Shown here piece by piece: positions 24,557-35,663 of a stretch of DNA of 41,966 nucleotides. The stretch spans positions 1 through 41,966 of IMG/VR virus record IMGVR_UViG_3300026221_000042. One strand, written 5' to 3'. A program made the translations under genes and the position numbers. How positions within the stretch are numbered: position 1 is the stretch's first letter; the number at the start of each line of letters is the position of its first letter. The notes beneath the pieces were generated by a model. It was not told where the DNA came from. It was given only the letters and a program-made list of their open reading frames with translations, and did no database searches. The DNA comes from a virus.

Positions 24557-24866
24557 TGTCTTCTCCCAAACGCTTTAGAAACCGCTTTTCGATTATGCGA
24601 ATAGCTTCGGCACCTGACCAACCCGCCAATCCAGCAAAGCCACCTGCAATTTCAGCAGCCCAACTGGAATAGCTGGCGAACAGAAGCACCAGAGCCCCAG
24701 CGAAAATTGATATAGCCATCTTCAATAAGAAGAATGACCAGCGAAACTGCTCACCATTCATAATCCGCCAGGCATAGTTGGCTATGGTTCCGAGCATGGT
24801 CATGATAAACACCAGCACGGTACCAAGGATGCTGAATGTCTCTGGTTCTTTGATCGGCATTTTCAT
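24540..24866 (-). CDS. Holin
   Basis: 108 residues with three likely membrane segments (about 12-33, 44-65 and 69-87) and a charged C-terminus (IIEKRFLKRLGEDNANQQ), the layout of class I holins. GGGGAGA lies 3 bases before the ATG at 24866. ATG codons at positions 1 and 3 could give two products, as in the holin/antiholin pair of lambda S, but this is only suggested by the sequence. It sets lysis timing. Confidence 0.9.
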   Translation of the reverse strand: MKMPIKEPETFSILGTVLVFIMTMLGTIANYAWRIMNGEQFRWSFFLLKMAISIFAGALVLLFASYSSWAAEIAGGFAGLAGWSGAEAIRIIEKRFLKRLGEDNANQQ

Positions 24867-24923
24867 GGTCTCCCCCTCCGGTATGCGGTTGGGTGCTTAG
24901 TAGAAAGAAATTTAGCGGCGCAG

Positions 24924-24972
24924 TCCGTTTGCGAAAAGATGAATGGTTAGCTGATTGACTGGCCGCCAAAAC
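24924..24972. repeat. Cassette boundary repeat, copy A
   Basis: 49 bases that recur at 25973-26021 with one mismatch (48/49), both followed by a similar hairpin terminator. The two copies bracket about 1 kb of cargo (25,019-25,900). Confidence 0.92.
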
Positions 24973-24973
24973 G

Positions 24974-24997
24974 AAAAAGGCCACCCGAAGGCAGCCT
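24974..24997 (-). terminator. Hairpin terminator beside repeat A
   Basis: On the minus strand GGCTGCC-TTCG-GGTGGCC is followed by TTTTT. The stem is 7 bp with two G-T pairs. It follows the 83-residue gene at 25019 on the leftward transcript. Confidence 0.72.
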
Positions 24998-25899: not shown

Positions 25900-25972
25900 A
25901 TACATCAGATGACTTTGTTGAATAATTCGGGTTTAGATAAAACTCCCCCCTATCAGTCATTTTTTCAGGCAA

Positions 25973-26021
25973 TCCGTTTGCGAAAAAATGAATGGTTAGC
26001 TGATTGACTGGCCGCCAAAAC
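25973..26021. repeat. Cassette boundary repeat, copy B
   Basis: Second copy of the 49-base repeat at 24924-24972, one mismatch. It introduces cargo cassette 2 with the secreted Cys-repeat protein. Confidence 0.92.
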
Positions 26022-26024
26022 AAG

Positions 26025-26048
26025 AAAAGGCCGCCAATTTGGCAGCCT
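26025..26048 (-). terminator. Hairpin terminator beside repeat B
   Basis: On the minus strand GGCTGCCA-AAT-TGGCGGCC is followed by TTTTC. It is the counterpart of the hairpin at 24974-24997. Confidence 0.75.
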
Positions 26049-26649: not shown

Positions 26650-27693
26650 TCAGTTTTTCGAGAATATTTCTTCCAACGTCTGATTATAACGTTCCTCTTC
26701 GAGTTCCACGCCCAGCGCGAAACGGCCCAGCTTGATTGCTTCTTTTATCGTGGAACCAGATCCCATGAAAAAATCAGCAACTACATCGCCCGGTCGGCTG
26801 CTGGCGTTGATGATGTCTCTCATCATCTCTGCAGGCTTTTCACACGGATGTTTGCTGGCATAATACGGGACAGACTTATAGGTCCATACGTCGGTAAACG
26901 GCACTGCTGACGAAACGGTGAATGGCCGGCGCAATCGCTTATGTTCATCAACCAGCTCCGCATACTGGCGAGATAGGGAATGATATTCCTCAATCAGTTG
27001 GTGGTGAGGATGGTCCAACTCTTGCCGGGTGTGTTTTTCCCGCGCTACCTGCTCAAATAACCCCTGAAGCGCTAAATAGTCTATCTCACTCGGTAATTGC
27101 CACTGGCTTTCACTGAACCAGTGCGAGGCCATCTGTTTACCGGTTGCCTGGTGAATCTCTTTCGACGTGATCCCCAACGCTTTACGGGCATTGCTGAAGT
27201 AGTCCACTAGCGGTTTGAGAGTGTTTTTGCGCTGTTCCTGGCACTTCACGGAATAACTTGATGCCTTTCCGTTATACGGCCCGCTGTAATGCTCAGCGAA
27301 GAGGATCCGTTCAGTGGCCGGGAAATATGCCCTCAAGTCTTCTTTGTGCTGCCGGTTCCAAGGCCCGGAAGGTTTGGCCCAGATGATATGATTGAGGATT
27401 CTAAAGCGCTCACGCATAAGCAGCTCTGTGTCAGCCGCTAATCGTGACCCACAAAAAACATACAGGCTGCCTGAGGGTTTGATTACCCGCCAAAATTCCG
27501 CAAACATCTCATCTAGCCAGGCAAGGTACGCTGATTCGTCTGGCCACTGATTGTCCCACTTACATGGCTTAACCCTGAAATACGGGGGATCCGTTGCTAT
27601 CAGGTCAATGCAGTCATCAGGCAAGGTTTTGATGTATTGGAGTGAGTCAGCACAAATTAAATTTATACTGTTTAAATTCACAGTGTTTTTCAT
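26650..27693 (-). CDS. DNA methyltransferase (beta class, N6A or N4C)
   Basis: 347 residues. The catalytic motif DPPY is at residues 35-38 and the AdoMet-binding motif near the C-terminus reads ADFFMGSGST (about 310), so motif IV precedes motif I as in beta-class enzymes. The roughly 130 residues between (about 150-285), with HxxLIEEYHSLSRQY coiled-coil character, would be the target-recognition part. No restriction partner lies beside it, so it is an orphan methylase, perhaps protecting phage DNA from host restriction. It lies between the tRNAs and the lysis/cargo region, on the late strand. The recognition sequence cannot be read from here. Confidence 0.9.
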   Translation of the reverse strand: MKNTVNLNSINLICADSLQYIKTLPDDCIDLIATDPPYFRVKPCKWDNQWPDESAYLAWLDEMFAEFWRVIKPSGSLYVFCGSRLAADTELLMRERFRILNHIIWAKPSGPWNRQHKEDLRAYFPATERILFAEHYSGPYNGKASSYSVKCQEQRKNTLKPLVDYFSNARKALGITSKEIHQATGKQMASHWFSESQWQLPSEIDYLALQGLFEQVAREKHTRQELDHPHHQLIEEYHSLSRQYAELVDEHKRLRRPFTVSSAVPFTDVWTYKSVPYYASKHPCEKPAEMMRDIINASSRPGDVVADFFMGSGSTIKEAIKLGRFALGVELEEERYNQTLEEIFSKN

Positions 27694-28138: not shown

Positions 28139-28215
28139 TGGCCCGCCACCGAGGCCTCGAACCTCGCTCCTACAACATAAAGGTTATTGGCTCTAACCAA
28201 CTGAGCTAGCGGCGG
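28139..28215 (-). tRNA. tRNA-like gene with abnormal anticodon arm
   Basis: 77 bases with an encoded CCA. Acceptor stem CCGCCGC/GTGGCGG, D arm GCTC-AGTTGGTTA-GAGC and T arm CGAGG-TTCGAGG-CCTCG are all good. The anticodon arm pairs only if base 26 is absent: CAATA-ACCTTTA-TGTTG. That loop has C, not T, at position 33, and the formal anticodon would be CTT (Lys). In the standard register the stem has three mismatches. The anticodon is therefore uncertain and the gene may be degenerate. Confidence 0.75.
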
Positions 28216-28918
28216 TATATAAAATCTTGCTGTGCTTGCATCATCTGGCGGTGCGCAGAGCGAAGAAGAGAAATGTTACGCTTCTAAATTGACTCTCACA
28301 ACCCTGATGTCTGAACTTTACATTACTATATTAATCTTGCACTTATAGAAAATACGCAAACCTAATTGCTACACTCTCACAGTGGCCGCGCTCATGTCCT
28401 TGAGTTGCTGTCGCATCATGCCGCTGATAACCGGTGCGCGTCTGGCTGTCGCACTGCTCTACCGGGGCTAATTCCCTTATTAACCCTCACACGGATAGCT
28501 AATCCTGCTCGCCATTACGCGACTCGGGGCAGCATCATTACTGCTGCATTGGCTGACGCCTGCGGTCTATCCGTTTACTGGTGCATTTTTCTAACCTCCA
28601 GAAACGACAAAACCCCGCCGGAGCGAGGTTCTGAGATTGTCTAAGCTTTGTGACTACGTGACCACTCTTAACACACTACAAGGTTTTTTGCGGACCGCGT
28701 GAGATTTTTTTGTTGAGCCTGTAACAATACCTAGTTAAAGTAATGCAACTCTTTGAAAGCACAAAATAATAAGCTTTATTCTTATAACTCTTTGTTTTAT
28801 TTATACTTAGCACCATGGAAATTAGGTGGGAAGATAATAGTATCGAAATGTTACTATTTCTTTATTTGAATTAATTTGATTGCTCGTCAGAAGACAAAGC
28901 ACTCTGTGTGGTACTTAC
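28216..28918. other. Long gap with possible late promoter and a doubtful ORF
   Basis: About 700 bases without a firm gene. The late promoter for the leftward genes is expected here, upstream of the tRNAs; TATAGT on the minus strand (28325-28330) is a possible -10 box, without a good -35. A + strand frame at 28366-28644 (92 codons) starts only with TTG and ends in a terminator hairpin; I doubt it. The right third (28730-28880) is very AT-rich and must contain the promoter of the + strand operon; TTGAAA (28753-28758) and TATTCT 18 bases on are one candidate pair. Confidence 0.45.
28607..28630 (-). terminator. Leftward terminator-like hairpin
   Basis: On the minus strand AACCTCGC-TCCG-GCGGGGTT (one mismatch) is followed by TTGTCGTTT. 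It could end leftward transcripts coming from Q, ahead of the tRNAs. Confidence 0.6.
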
Positions 28919-29332
28919 ATGACAAACACAGCACAAAAAGTTATGCCTCAATGGCCTGATTTCCCTGATGGCATTCCGCCGGATGGAGCACATGCGCCTG
29001 CTGGTGACTACTACCGCATAACTAACAAACAACAACCCAGCGCAAAATGTTGTGCAAGCGACTATCAGAAAAACCCCCATACACTGGATGAACGTACAGG
29101 TTTAGAGTATATTTGCTCTTACGGGATCTCAATTCAAAATACCCTTGAAGGCGCACGTGAAACCGTTGGAAGGTTTAGGAATGCAACGCGCAAGAGATTT
29201 ATTGCGAAAGGCTCTTTGAATGAAGAAATTGGGTTAGTCAAGCAAACCTTCCAAAAAGAGTACCACCACACCCTTTGGACGTACGACGGTGTGAAAACAC
29301 ATACGTATTTCCAATTTCTAGAAGTGGCATAA
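28919..29332 (+). CDS. Unknown first gene of AT-rich accessory operon
   Basis: 137 residues from the ATG at 28919 (MTNTAQKVMPQWPDFPDGIP); a TTG start at 28880 is possible. The ribosome site is weak (GTGG). The N-terminal 45 residues are Pro/Gly-rich and probably flexible. A CC pair follows (SAKCCASDY), then helical stretches (GISIQNTLEGARETVGRFRNATRKR) and an aromatic C-terminus (YHHTLWTYDG). No membrane segment and no recognised family. It is separated from the next gene by only 2 bases, so the two products are likely made together. Codon and base use are more AT-rich than in phage structural genes, a sign of separate origin. Confidence 0.82.
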   Translation: MTNTAQKVMPQWPDFPDGIPPDGAHAPAGDYYRITNKQQPSAKCCASDYQKNPHTLDERTGLEYICSYGISIQNTLEGARETVGRFRNATRKRFIAKGSLNEEIGLVKQTFQKEYHHTLWTYDGVKTHTYFQFLEVA

Positions 29333-29334
29333 TT

Positions 29335-30639
29335 ATGAAGAAAGTTTTTATAAAATCATCGATTCATGGAGATCTGTACTTCAGATCGATCTATGATTAT
29401 TTCGATGGCCCTAAGCTTTTTTCAGTCATCTCTAGCCGTGGGAAATTTTTGCTTGTCTACTGGATAGATGAAGATGATGATGATTACACTTGGGTTGCGA
29501 TTGATATAACAAAATCTAGACTGCTCGCGCTTGAAAGAAAAGCTCTTGATATTTATAGTGCACTTAATGAAAAAGAAGATAAAACTTACTTTAAAATCTT
29601 GACGCCTTTTGATAAAAGAAAGCCAGCAACTATAGAAACCATTGTTGGTGATATATCTTCTGAAATAATAATGCCAGACCGCGGTATACATATTAGCATG
29701 GTGGAAAATCATCTTGCTGAAGTGGAGTTCAATGAAATAATTGAAGCAGGCATTTTACATGCAGATTATTCATTGCACATAGACCGACCTAAGGCAAGTA
29801 GATCTCTTATTGATTTCACTAGTATAGCTCCGATATTTGATACTCTTAATGAATTGCTAAATGATTTCATATCTTCATTCAAAATTCATGACAAATTGCT
29901 TCCTGTAAGTGGAAAGCCTGGTTCATTTATAGTTGATTTTAACTCAAGCAAATTCAATCTTATAGAAGGTAACTTGAAAGAGTTAACCAATAGAATGAAA
30001 ATGAGAGTTGCAATTGGTTCATTTATTAAAGAGAAGAAGATTCCACTGCAAGCATTGGAAAAACTATTTACGCATATTTCAAATAAAAATCTTATTATTG
30101 ATTTGAGTAATAAGAATTCTGAAGATGAGTTCTTAAAAATCAGTAAGCTTGATGCTGATTTTTATTTGAAAGAAATTAACCGCTTGTCATCACTTGATTT
30201 GAGCAGTTGGCAAGTCCCACAAGCAGACACTTTAACCAGAGTATTTAGTCTTGTAGAAAACATATGGAAAAATGGTTTTCTTGATAGGGTTGCAACTGGG
30301 CTGAGTGATCGACATATTGCATACTATGAAGATGCAGCTAATATTTTAGGTTTTATTTCAGATTCTGGGACGGTTACATCCATTGGGCAACAGATGATCT
30401 TGGCTTCAGATGACGCTAAATTATCAATTACCGCCAAGTGCTTCGAAAATAGCCACTGTGGTTGGACATGGATAATGTGGAGCGAGGTTGAAAATATTAG
30501 CCAAGTCAATCCCGATACAGCAAAAAAATTCCTTGACGAATGCGCAGTAACGCTTAGTGAAACGACTAAGCAGAGGCGTTCTAGGACATTAAAAACTTGG
30601 TGTAATTACCTCCAAGAACATTATAAGAACTGGGGTTAA
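29335..30639 (+). CDS. Unknown 434-residue protein, second gene of accessory operon
   Basis: 434 residues from the ATG at 29335, 2 bases after the previous stop. The first 90 residues (LYFRSIYDYFDGPKLFSVIS, LLVYWIDEDDDDYTWVAID) resemble DUF6575-type N-terminal domains; this is from memory and uncertain. The middle (about 100-290) is mixed and charged, with a possible coiled part (LKELTNRMKMRVAIGSF). Residues about 320-430 look like a winged helix followed by a helical end: DRHIAYYEDAANILGFISD, GTVTSIGQQMI, then CGWTWIMWSEV. That pattern occurs in regulatory or nuclease-associated domains. No catalytic motif is visible. A perfect stem-loop follows. A role in blocking other phages is inference from place, strand and composition. 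Confidence 0.85.
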   Translation: MKKVFIKSSIHGDLYFRSIYDYFDGPKLFSVISSRGKFLLVYWIDEDDDDYTWVAIDITKSRLLALERKALDIYSALNEKEDKTYFKILTPFDKRKPATIETIVGDISSEIIMPDRGIHISMVENHLAEVEFNEIIEAGILHADYSLHIDRPKASRSLIDFTSIAPIFDTLNELLNDFISSFKIHDKLLPVSGKPGSFIVDFNSSKFNLIEGNLKELTNRMKMRVAIGSFIKEKKIPLQALEKLFTHISNKNLIIDLSNKNSEDEFLKISKLDADFYLKEINRLSSLDLSSWQVPQADTLTRVFSLVENIWKNGFLDRVATGLSDRHIAYYEDAANILGFISDSGTVTSIGQQMILASDDAKLSITAKCFENSHCGWTWIMWSEVENISQVNPDTAKKFLDECAVTLSETTKQRRSRTLKTWCNYLQEHYKNWG

Positions 30640-30688: not shown

Positions 30689-31039
30689 TCACACCCCAGC
30701 ATTAAGACTTGATAAACATCCTTCTACAAATCCCTCGGCTAATTGTATTGATATCCTGACATTTTTTTCATCTTTCCTTAATCGCTTTGCAATCGACCGC
30801 TTCGATTGATTATAAACATAGTGCTGAATCAACAAATTGCTCTCGTCGGGTCTACGCTGCTTTAATCGAGCAACGCACCCATCAACAATTAAACCAACAT
30901 CATCGCTGCATGACAGCGCCGTTGCACCTGAAGGTGGTAACAAACCTTTGAAGCCTGCGGCTATGGAAGAAAAATCAATACCACTATTATCTCGAGCCCA
31001 AACACCCCACCGGGATAGTACTTCCTGAATATCACGCAT
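30689..31039 (-). CDS. Q: Late antiterminator Q
   Basis: 116 residues from the ATG at 31039, with GGAGAG just upstream; a GTG at 31051 is less likely. The N-terminal RDIQEVLSRWGVWARDNSG matches the phage_antitermQ family (phage 82 type), and the C-terminal half contains a helix-turn-helix-like NQSKRSIAKRLRKDEKNVR. Q would modify RNA polymerase at the late promoter so that it reads through the many hairpins in the late operon. In lambda the late promoter lies directly after Q; here the + strand operon intervenes. Confidence 0.92.
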   Translation of the reverse strand: MRDIQEVLSRWGVWARDNSGIDFSSIAAGFKGLLPPSGATALSCSDDVGLIVDGCVARLKQRRPDESNLLIQHYVYNQSKRSIAKRLRKDEKNVRISIQLAEGFVEGCLSSLNAGV

Positions 31040-31053
31040 TATTCTCTCCACAC

Positions 31054-32076
31054 TTATTTAGCTTTGCCGGTAGTGATAACACCCATCGCCAGCGCGCTAT
31101 CTATTGTCTTCAACGCCAGTACTGCCTGGCTGCCATTCTCTTCTTCCCAAGCTGACGTATTCGCGTGTAATGCGTCGTGGCACCGCCTGCACAGCGGGAT
31201 CACGAACATGTCATGCGATTTTGTTGCCATACCGCCCAGTCCGTAGCCGGTGATGTGGTGCGGGTCGTCTGCCTGGTTCCCGCAGCCGCAGCATGGCTGG
31301 CGCTTAACCCACTGCGTATAATTTGGATTTACCCAGCGGCGGCGTTTCGGTCGAAGCATGAAAGATTCCGGCGTTTCCGGGTCGATGGCCAGCGCCAGCA
31401 CCGGTTTAACCTTTTCGGCTTTCTCCACCAGGACTTCAACGGGTACCGCCTCGGGTTGAATGTCAGCCTCCCGCCCTACCGGTTTTATAGGCTCCGCTGG
31501 TTTCCAGCGCAAGGCATGGCGCGCTGCTGAATCCGGCATGACGTCGATCACCCCGGCGGTAACAGCCCACCAGCACAACTCAAAGAAACTGAGCTGGTGG
31601 CCCTGCGGTAACTTCAGCCGGTGCTGCGCGGTGTGCACTACCCATGTTGCAATATTCTGATAAGCCAGACGGTCGAGCTCCGGCAATATCATTTGCCTCA
31701 ACTTGTGTTCGTGGTGCCAGCAAAGGCGAATGGCGCTGTTGTCGTAATCAAGCATCCCCAAATTGTTATCGTGATAGCCGTCCGGCGTGTTCTCCCACTG
31801 GCAGCAAGGCATAGTTTCCAACCAGCTTTTCATGCCCCATGCACCACCAGCAGCACCGATCACACGTTCATTAGTGAAAAATCCATGAAGCCGCTCGTCA
31901 TCCACAAGAGACTGACTGACGGCAGGGATCTCGCCGATCGGGAAATCTTTCAGTTCTTCCGGCACGGTCGAAATGAGCAGACGCTGGTGGCTGAACAATC
32001 CCATAAGCGCTCTACCAGGCTTTAATATCACGATGTTTGCATCGCGCTGTGGGTAAGGCGTCAATAATGCTCTCAC
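31054..32076 (-). CDS. DUF968 protein with HNH-like domain
   Basis: 340 residues from a GTG at 32076, chosen because GGAG lies 8 bases upstream and the codon overlaps the previous stop (GTGA). The first 180 residues fit DUF968 (RALLTPYPQRD, GWWHEHKL-like CWHHEHKL, FFELCWWAV). The C-terminal part has CCGCGNQADDPHHITGYGLGG and PLCRRCHDALH, a zinc HNH-like fold shared with P1 Ref, a RecA-dependent nuclease. It is found near Q in many lambdoid phages. A recombination or nuclease role is inferred. Confidence 0.88.
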   Translation of the reverse strand: MRALLTPYPQRDANIVILKPGRALMGLFSHQRLLISTVPEELKDFPIGEIPAVSQSLVDDERLHGFFTNERVIGAAGGAWGMKSWLETMPCCQWENTPDGYHDNNLGMLDYDNSAIRLCWHHEHKLRQMILPELDRLAYQNIATWVVHTAQHRLKLPQGHQLSFFELCWWAVTAGVIDVMPDSAARHALRWKPAEPIKPVGREADIQPEAVPVEVLVEKAEKVKPVLALAIDPETPESFMLRPKRRRWVNPNYTQWVKRQPCCGCGNQADDPHHITGYGLGGMATKSHDMFVIPLCRRCHDALHANTSAWEEENGSQAVLALKTIDSALAMGVITTGKAK

Positions 32077-35624: not shown

Positions 35625-35663
35625 TTCGTTCCCTCTGATTTCCTCGAAAGTCCCTGTCCCCAA

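Follow-up and report, generated by a model that had tools for sequence, protein, structure and literature searches.

Comparison with PD-T4-10

PD-T4-10 is a two-gene system found by functional selection in Escherichia coli (Vassallo et al. 2022, PMC9519451). Its B protein is toxic, and the A protein fully neutralizes B and cannot be deleted (PMC9519451). Deletion of B abolishes resistance to T4, and the system confers strong protection against T-even phages through abortive infection (PMC9519451); no published mechanism was found in our literature search, which returned a single paper each for PD-T4-10 and DUF6575. Here we describe a related pair of genes, A and B, in the IMG/VR virus record IMGVR_UViG_3300026221_000042, of which positions 1 to 41,966 were analysed (hereafter, the window). 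The pair had been marked as a candidate phage-exclusion operon in a first-pass annotation made from the DNA sequence alone. Homology and modelled structures suggest that the cassette is probably a toxin-antitoxin system of the abortive-infection type and a PD-T4-10-related variant. The features of the locus are listed in Table 1.

Table 1. Cassette genes, predicted domains of B and neighbouring features in the window
Feature	Coordinates	Strand	Remarks
Gene A	28919-29332	+	137 aa, ATG start; PD-T4-10A-related predicted antitoxin, ART-like fold
Gene B	29335-30639	+	434 aa, ATG start; DUF6575 protein, predicted toxin
B residues 1-104, N-terminal beta-barrel	29335-29646	+	sole part common to canonical PD-T4-10 B
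B residues ~140-290, middle alpha/beta domain	29752-30204	+	invariant S197, conserved PGSF; not matched to any known fold
B residues 296-434, predicted winged-helix / BrxA-like DNA-binding fold	30220-30636	+	weak DUF7226 match
Perfect 13-bp stem with 4-base loop	30652-30681		between convergent 3' ends of B and Q
Q antiterminator	30689-31051	-	Phage_antitermQ, E 2e-44; right-hand border of cassette
Late leader with tR'-like terminator (28633-28608)	28608-28717	-	left-hand border, left of A
N6_N4 DNA methyltransferase	26650-27693	-	late region, 1.2 kb from A-B pair; putative link only

Like PD-T4-10, the pair is a two-gene operon in which a small A precedes a larger B, and both are carried on mobile elements. 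The A family and a DUF6575-like barrel at the N-terminus of B are common to the two. The differences lie in the remainder of B, which in the canonical system has 353-367 residues (PADLOC) and ends in a module with an IQYASPGFIEL-type motif, whereas the 434-residue B of the window carries a middle domain and a C-terminus with a predicted BrxA-like DNA-binding fold. The genes of the window also differ in being 2 bp apart without overlap.

The DUF6575-like N-terminus proposed in the first-pass annotation was found in B with an E-value of 4e-28 (PF20215; 98.8 bits against a gathering threshold of 26.6). The match of B to the PADLOC model PD-T4-10_B (E 4e-7) is confined to residues 13-97. Because the homology did not extend over the full length of B when tested, the pair is treated here as a relative or variant of PD-T4-10 and not as a member. 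For relatives of A found in Rahnella, in E. coli and on viral contigs, the PADLOC model PD-T4-10_A gives E-values from 1e-10 to 1e-4 over approximately positions 24-147 of its 148; the A protein of locus L066, the closest relative tested (51% identity to A of the window), gives 1e-4. By sequence, A of the window is placed in the PD-T4-10 A family via such intermediates only. This homology of the A relatives and of the B N-terminus to an experimentally proven system supports a role in phage exclusion, although it points to a relative of the toxin-antitoxin type rather than to a classical exclusion gene as first proposed.

Conserved pairing of A and B

Scans of viral contigs returned 63 loci with B. 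A lies directly upstream on the same strand in 62 of the 63, mostly with a 4-bp overlap of the ATGA type; the exception, L112, is truncated where its contig ends. In L094 the reading frame of A is split. The same pairing is seen in plasmid and genome loci, including E. coli prophages, and in four of the six Enterobacterales genomes with DUF6575. Judged from these gene neighbourhoods, A and B are a conserved two-gene unit, in keeping with the earlier suggestion that the 137-residue protein is the partner of the 434-residue one.

In the remaining two of these six genomes, a DUF6575 N-terminal domain of 128 residues stands as an orphan without A (L141, 4181-4567; L142, 4666-5052). The neighbours of the orphans are different AAA-type genes, including one for an AAA_13/AAA_21 protein, and one downstream flanking gene is common to both. 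The orphan domains are possibly remnants in a defence hotspot.

Interchangeable C-termini of B

The PADLOC model PD-T4-10_B (353 positions) is composed of a DUF6575-like N-terminus and the module with the IQYASPGFIEL motif, and this fusion is seen in B of locus L138 (149.8 bits over 23-344). The N-termini of B from the window and from L138 align in hhalign with an E-value of 6e-5 over 106 columns; between the C-terminal parts of the same two proteins no homology was detectable by this method. In locus L060 an A-like gene precedes a B gene whose product joins a DUF6575 N-terminus to a PDC-M63B C-terminus, which links the family to the PADLOC candidate system PDC-M63, whereas B of the window gives no PDC-M63B match. 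The single test of PDC-M63AB that we found was negative for defence (PMC12409345). As canonical, PDC-M63B and BrxA-like C-termini are all seen, at least three C-terminal types stand behind the DUF6575 barrel, and among the loci examined here A is directly upstream for two of these.

The region around the PGSF motif in B of the window was considered as a homologue of the canonical SPGFIEL module. The motifs fall in register in hhalign but without significance, and the homology is not claimed.

Stand-alone proteins of 205-235 residues with the IQYASPGFIEL motif occur without A in L052, L053, L127-L129, L131, L135-L137, L062 and L063. Those that were scanned match PADLOC PD-T4-10_B, and the one in L127 adjoins a complete A-B pair.

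Predicted structure of A

An AlphaFold2 model of A was calculated from 33 sequences (predicted local distance difference test, pLDDT, 93). The top match in VIA-align 2 is KptA/Tpt1 (Z 7.6 with root-mean-square deviation, rmsd, 3.2 over 93 residues), and the next rows are bacterial ADP-ribosyltransferase (ART) toxins, ParT, RES and MbcT; Z-scores across RES, ParT, MbcT and KptA/Tpt1 are 4.9-7.6. Foldseek E-values for A were 0.18 or higher, and solved structures searched with sequence profiles of A and B gave insignificant matches only. Since several different ART families recur among the structural matches, an ART-like fold is likely for A, although the single Z values are middling. The 33 members themselves yielded isolated chance matches only when scanned against Pfam.

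Enzymes of the ART type carry R-S-E and H-Y-E motif groups with a catalytic Glu. Across the 33 diverse sequences A has five invariant residues (R33, S71, G105, H116 and W120), none of them a Glu. In the model R33 lies on strand 1, S71 on strand 2 and H116 on strand 5, and these would be the ART motif strands, as judged from strand order rather than superposition. With an ART-like fold and conserved residues on the putative motif strands, the earlier statement that neither protein shows a catalytic motif appears too strong for A.

The likeness to RES, ParT, MbcT and KptA/Tpt1 is one of overall fold. In those proteins the ART domain is a toxin or an RNA-processing enzyme, whereas A is predicted by its PD-T4-10 homology to be the neutralizing partner; A also differs from the ART toxin-antitoxin modules and from KptA/Tpt1 in that it is without the conserved Glu. 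A literature search returned no paper that combines an ART-fold antitoxin with phage defence.

Predicted structure of B and the roles of the two proteins

The AlphaFold2 model of B (pLDDT 90) comprises three domains. As a whole it has no significant Foldseek match in the PDB, and in a viral structure library it matches one DUF6575 protein (E 5e-10). The C-terminal domain resembles BrxA (PDB code: 7zge; Z 7.5 with rmsd 3.5 over 138 residues), the type IIS enzyme PaqCI (Z 5.8, 133 residues) and, over about 57 residues, the winged helices of DEAH helicases, so that the winged-helix-like C-terminus of the first-pass annotation is borne out by structural comparison of the model. BrxA, from the bacteriophage exclusion (BREX) system, is a DNA-binding protein with two helix-turn-helix domains that is structurally akin to the recognition domains of FokI and BpuJI (PMC12839542), and because of this resemblance DNA binding by the C-terminus of B is likely. 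The likeness to BrxA and to the type IIS recognition domains is in fold only. The match of the same region to DUF7226 (PF23871; 23.4 bits) is under the gathering threshold of 27, which is exceeded by the relatives in L047 and L009. No nuclease family matched B in scans of PADLOC, Pfam, PHROG and NCBIfam models. B had no match in phage records, and near-identical DNA was not found in E. coli genomes.

The pairing of an ART-like fold with a modelled DNA-binding fold raises the strongest rival to the assignment of B as the toxin, since toxin-antitoxin modules commonly combine an ART toxin with an antitoxin that binds DNA. Here A would be an ART-type toxin, and B would be both its DNA-binding antitoxin and the autoregulator, on the pattern of Xre-RES, ParST and MbcTA. 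The presence of RES, ParT and MbcT among the matches of A and the invariance of its five residues fit this arrangement; the lack of a conserved Glu in A does not, and to our knowledge the known ART antitoxins are all far smaller than B. In PD-T4-10, moreover, toxicity belongs to the homologue of B, and its neutralization to that of A (PMC9519451). We consider a reversal of roles unlikely.

Methyltransferase neighbours

In L009, L118, L119, L120, L125 and L126 the gene next upstream of A codes for an N6_N4 DNA methyltransferase, and the three form a methyltransferase-A-B operon. Together with the BrxA-like C-terminus this raises, for that clade, the reading of a restriction- or BREX-like system, in which the BrxA-like domain of B would recognize phage DNA that lacks methylation while the neighbouring methyltransferase protects self DNA. 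The extent of the BrxA and PaqCI matches and the methyltransferase gene in the late region of the window are in line with it, but most loci are without an adjoining methyltransferase, lambdoid prophages often have such genes in this region, and the scans of B gave no nuclease. No BREX core gene was noticed beside the pair, although no dedicated search for BrxC, PglX or PglZ was made. We rate such a system as quite improbable. In L009, L118 and L125 an integrase-like gene lies upstream beside the operon.

Composition and borders of the cassette

The first-pass annotation described two AT-rich genes on the + strand, 2 bases apart, that face Q and end at a 13-bp stem-loop, and the coordinates and the hairpin were verified. 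The ATG starts of both genes match those of their homologues. The G+C content of the pair is 37.2%, versus 49.2% for the whole window, and is as low in only 2% of window stretches of equal length; the AT-richness is much stronger in B (35% G+C) than in A (44%). Perfect 13-bp hairpins number two in the window, versus none in 30 Markov-simulated windows. The one beyond B has RNA folding z-scores against shuffled sequences of -3.9 on the + strand and -2.8 on the - strand; as it folds well on both strands it could terminate both genes, and it is probably a bidirectional terminator for B and Q. The other perfect hairpin lies at 35663, with arms ACTAAAAACTAAA and TTTAGTTTTTAGT.

With the late leader to the left of A, the pair stands between Q and the leader, and late transcription heads away from it. 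In phage mEp237 a late leader homologous to that of the window follows directly after Q, as an empty site. The leader of the window is uninterrupted, the cassette being placed between it and Q, and this layout recurs in L011 and L066, in which B is 59% and 50% identical to B of the window. In the Rahnella prophage L005, the A-B cassette splits the leader at the terminator stem, with a terminator left on each side. That cassette has the opposite orientation and lies on the other side of the equivalent late terminator, and for this reason the cassettes appear to have entered the site independently, which makes it a recurrent cargo site. Independent entry fits cargo DNA. The low G+C content and the empty site in mEp237 likewise support cargo, and the orphan domains beside AAA_13/AAA_21-type genes support a role in defence.

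The convergent arrangement of B and Q, 50 bp apart and repeated in L011 and L066, could also suit a pair that serves the phage's own regulation, acting on Q or on late transcription from its antisense position. This explanation is very improbable: most relatives with a recognizable late region run in the sense of the late genes, some occur outside lambdoid phages, and at the mEp237 junction other sequence stands in place of the cassette.

Several further observations concern the late region. A conserved, minigene-like block of the leader (28560-28620, - strand) has GGAGG followed by a mini open reading frame, ATG CAC CAG TAA; it is also seen in L140, in L005 (7305-7420; in Rahnella ATG CAT AAC TAA) and immediately behind Q in mEp237. 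A stretch of about 208 bp in the late-leader region (28366-28573) is 84% identical to positions 31254-31465 of mEp213 (L139), an intergenic segment beside an N-like antiterminator gene. A tRNA-like gene at 28139-28215 (- strand) adjoins tRNA-Gly and is given an anticodon of two bases only by ARAGORN; at the gathering threshold Rfam found only the tRNA-Gly, not the tRNA-like gene. Segments 24858-24997 and 25970-26048 both match a 143-bp segment of L005 (9522-9664), and seem from sequence to be a repeat within the window.

Proposed mechanism and implications

The assignment as a toxin-antitoxin variant related to PD-T4-10 must be set against the following results. On its own, A of the window had no match among the PADLOC, Pfam, PHROGs and NCBIfam models; B is without the canonical PD-T4-10 C-terminal module; the fold matches are middling (Z no higher than 7.6 for A, and 7.5 for the B C-terminus); and a promoter scan for A gave nothing above chance.

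If the assignment is correct, A and B would be translated together under a promoter that is active in lysogens, and A would bind B, probably via the constant N-terminal barrel, holding it inactive. Infection would disturb A or the A-B complex. Freed B could then engage DNA via its C-terminus, so that growth or phage replication stops, the infected cell is lost and phage spread is prevented. Two steps of this scheme, the restraint of B by A at the shared barrel and the action of B on DNA, are tentative and, taken together, somewhat doubtful. Broader still is the idea of a modular family of immune systems with a constant core, made up of an ART-fold A and the DUF6575 barrel, and a C-terminal effector or DNA sensor that is swapped; A would be an enzyme using NAD or ADP-ribose, so that neutralization is enzymatic or ligand-gated, and one clade would be linked to methylation. 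In this full form the idea is unlikely to hold.

The PADLOC models for PD-T4-10 used here miss A of the window and match B in part only. The pair also points to the junction of Q and the late leader as a recurrent site of defence cargo in lambdoid prophages. For PD-T4-10 itself the variant offers new handles, namely a predicted antitoxin with a probable ART-like fold, the DUF6575 barrel as the smallest part that the toxins have in common, and interchangeable C-termini. Domain deletions could reveal what A binds and which part of B kills.
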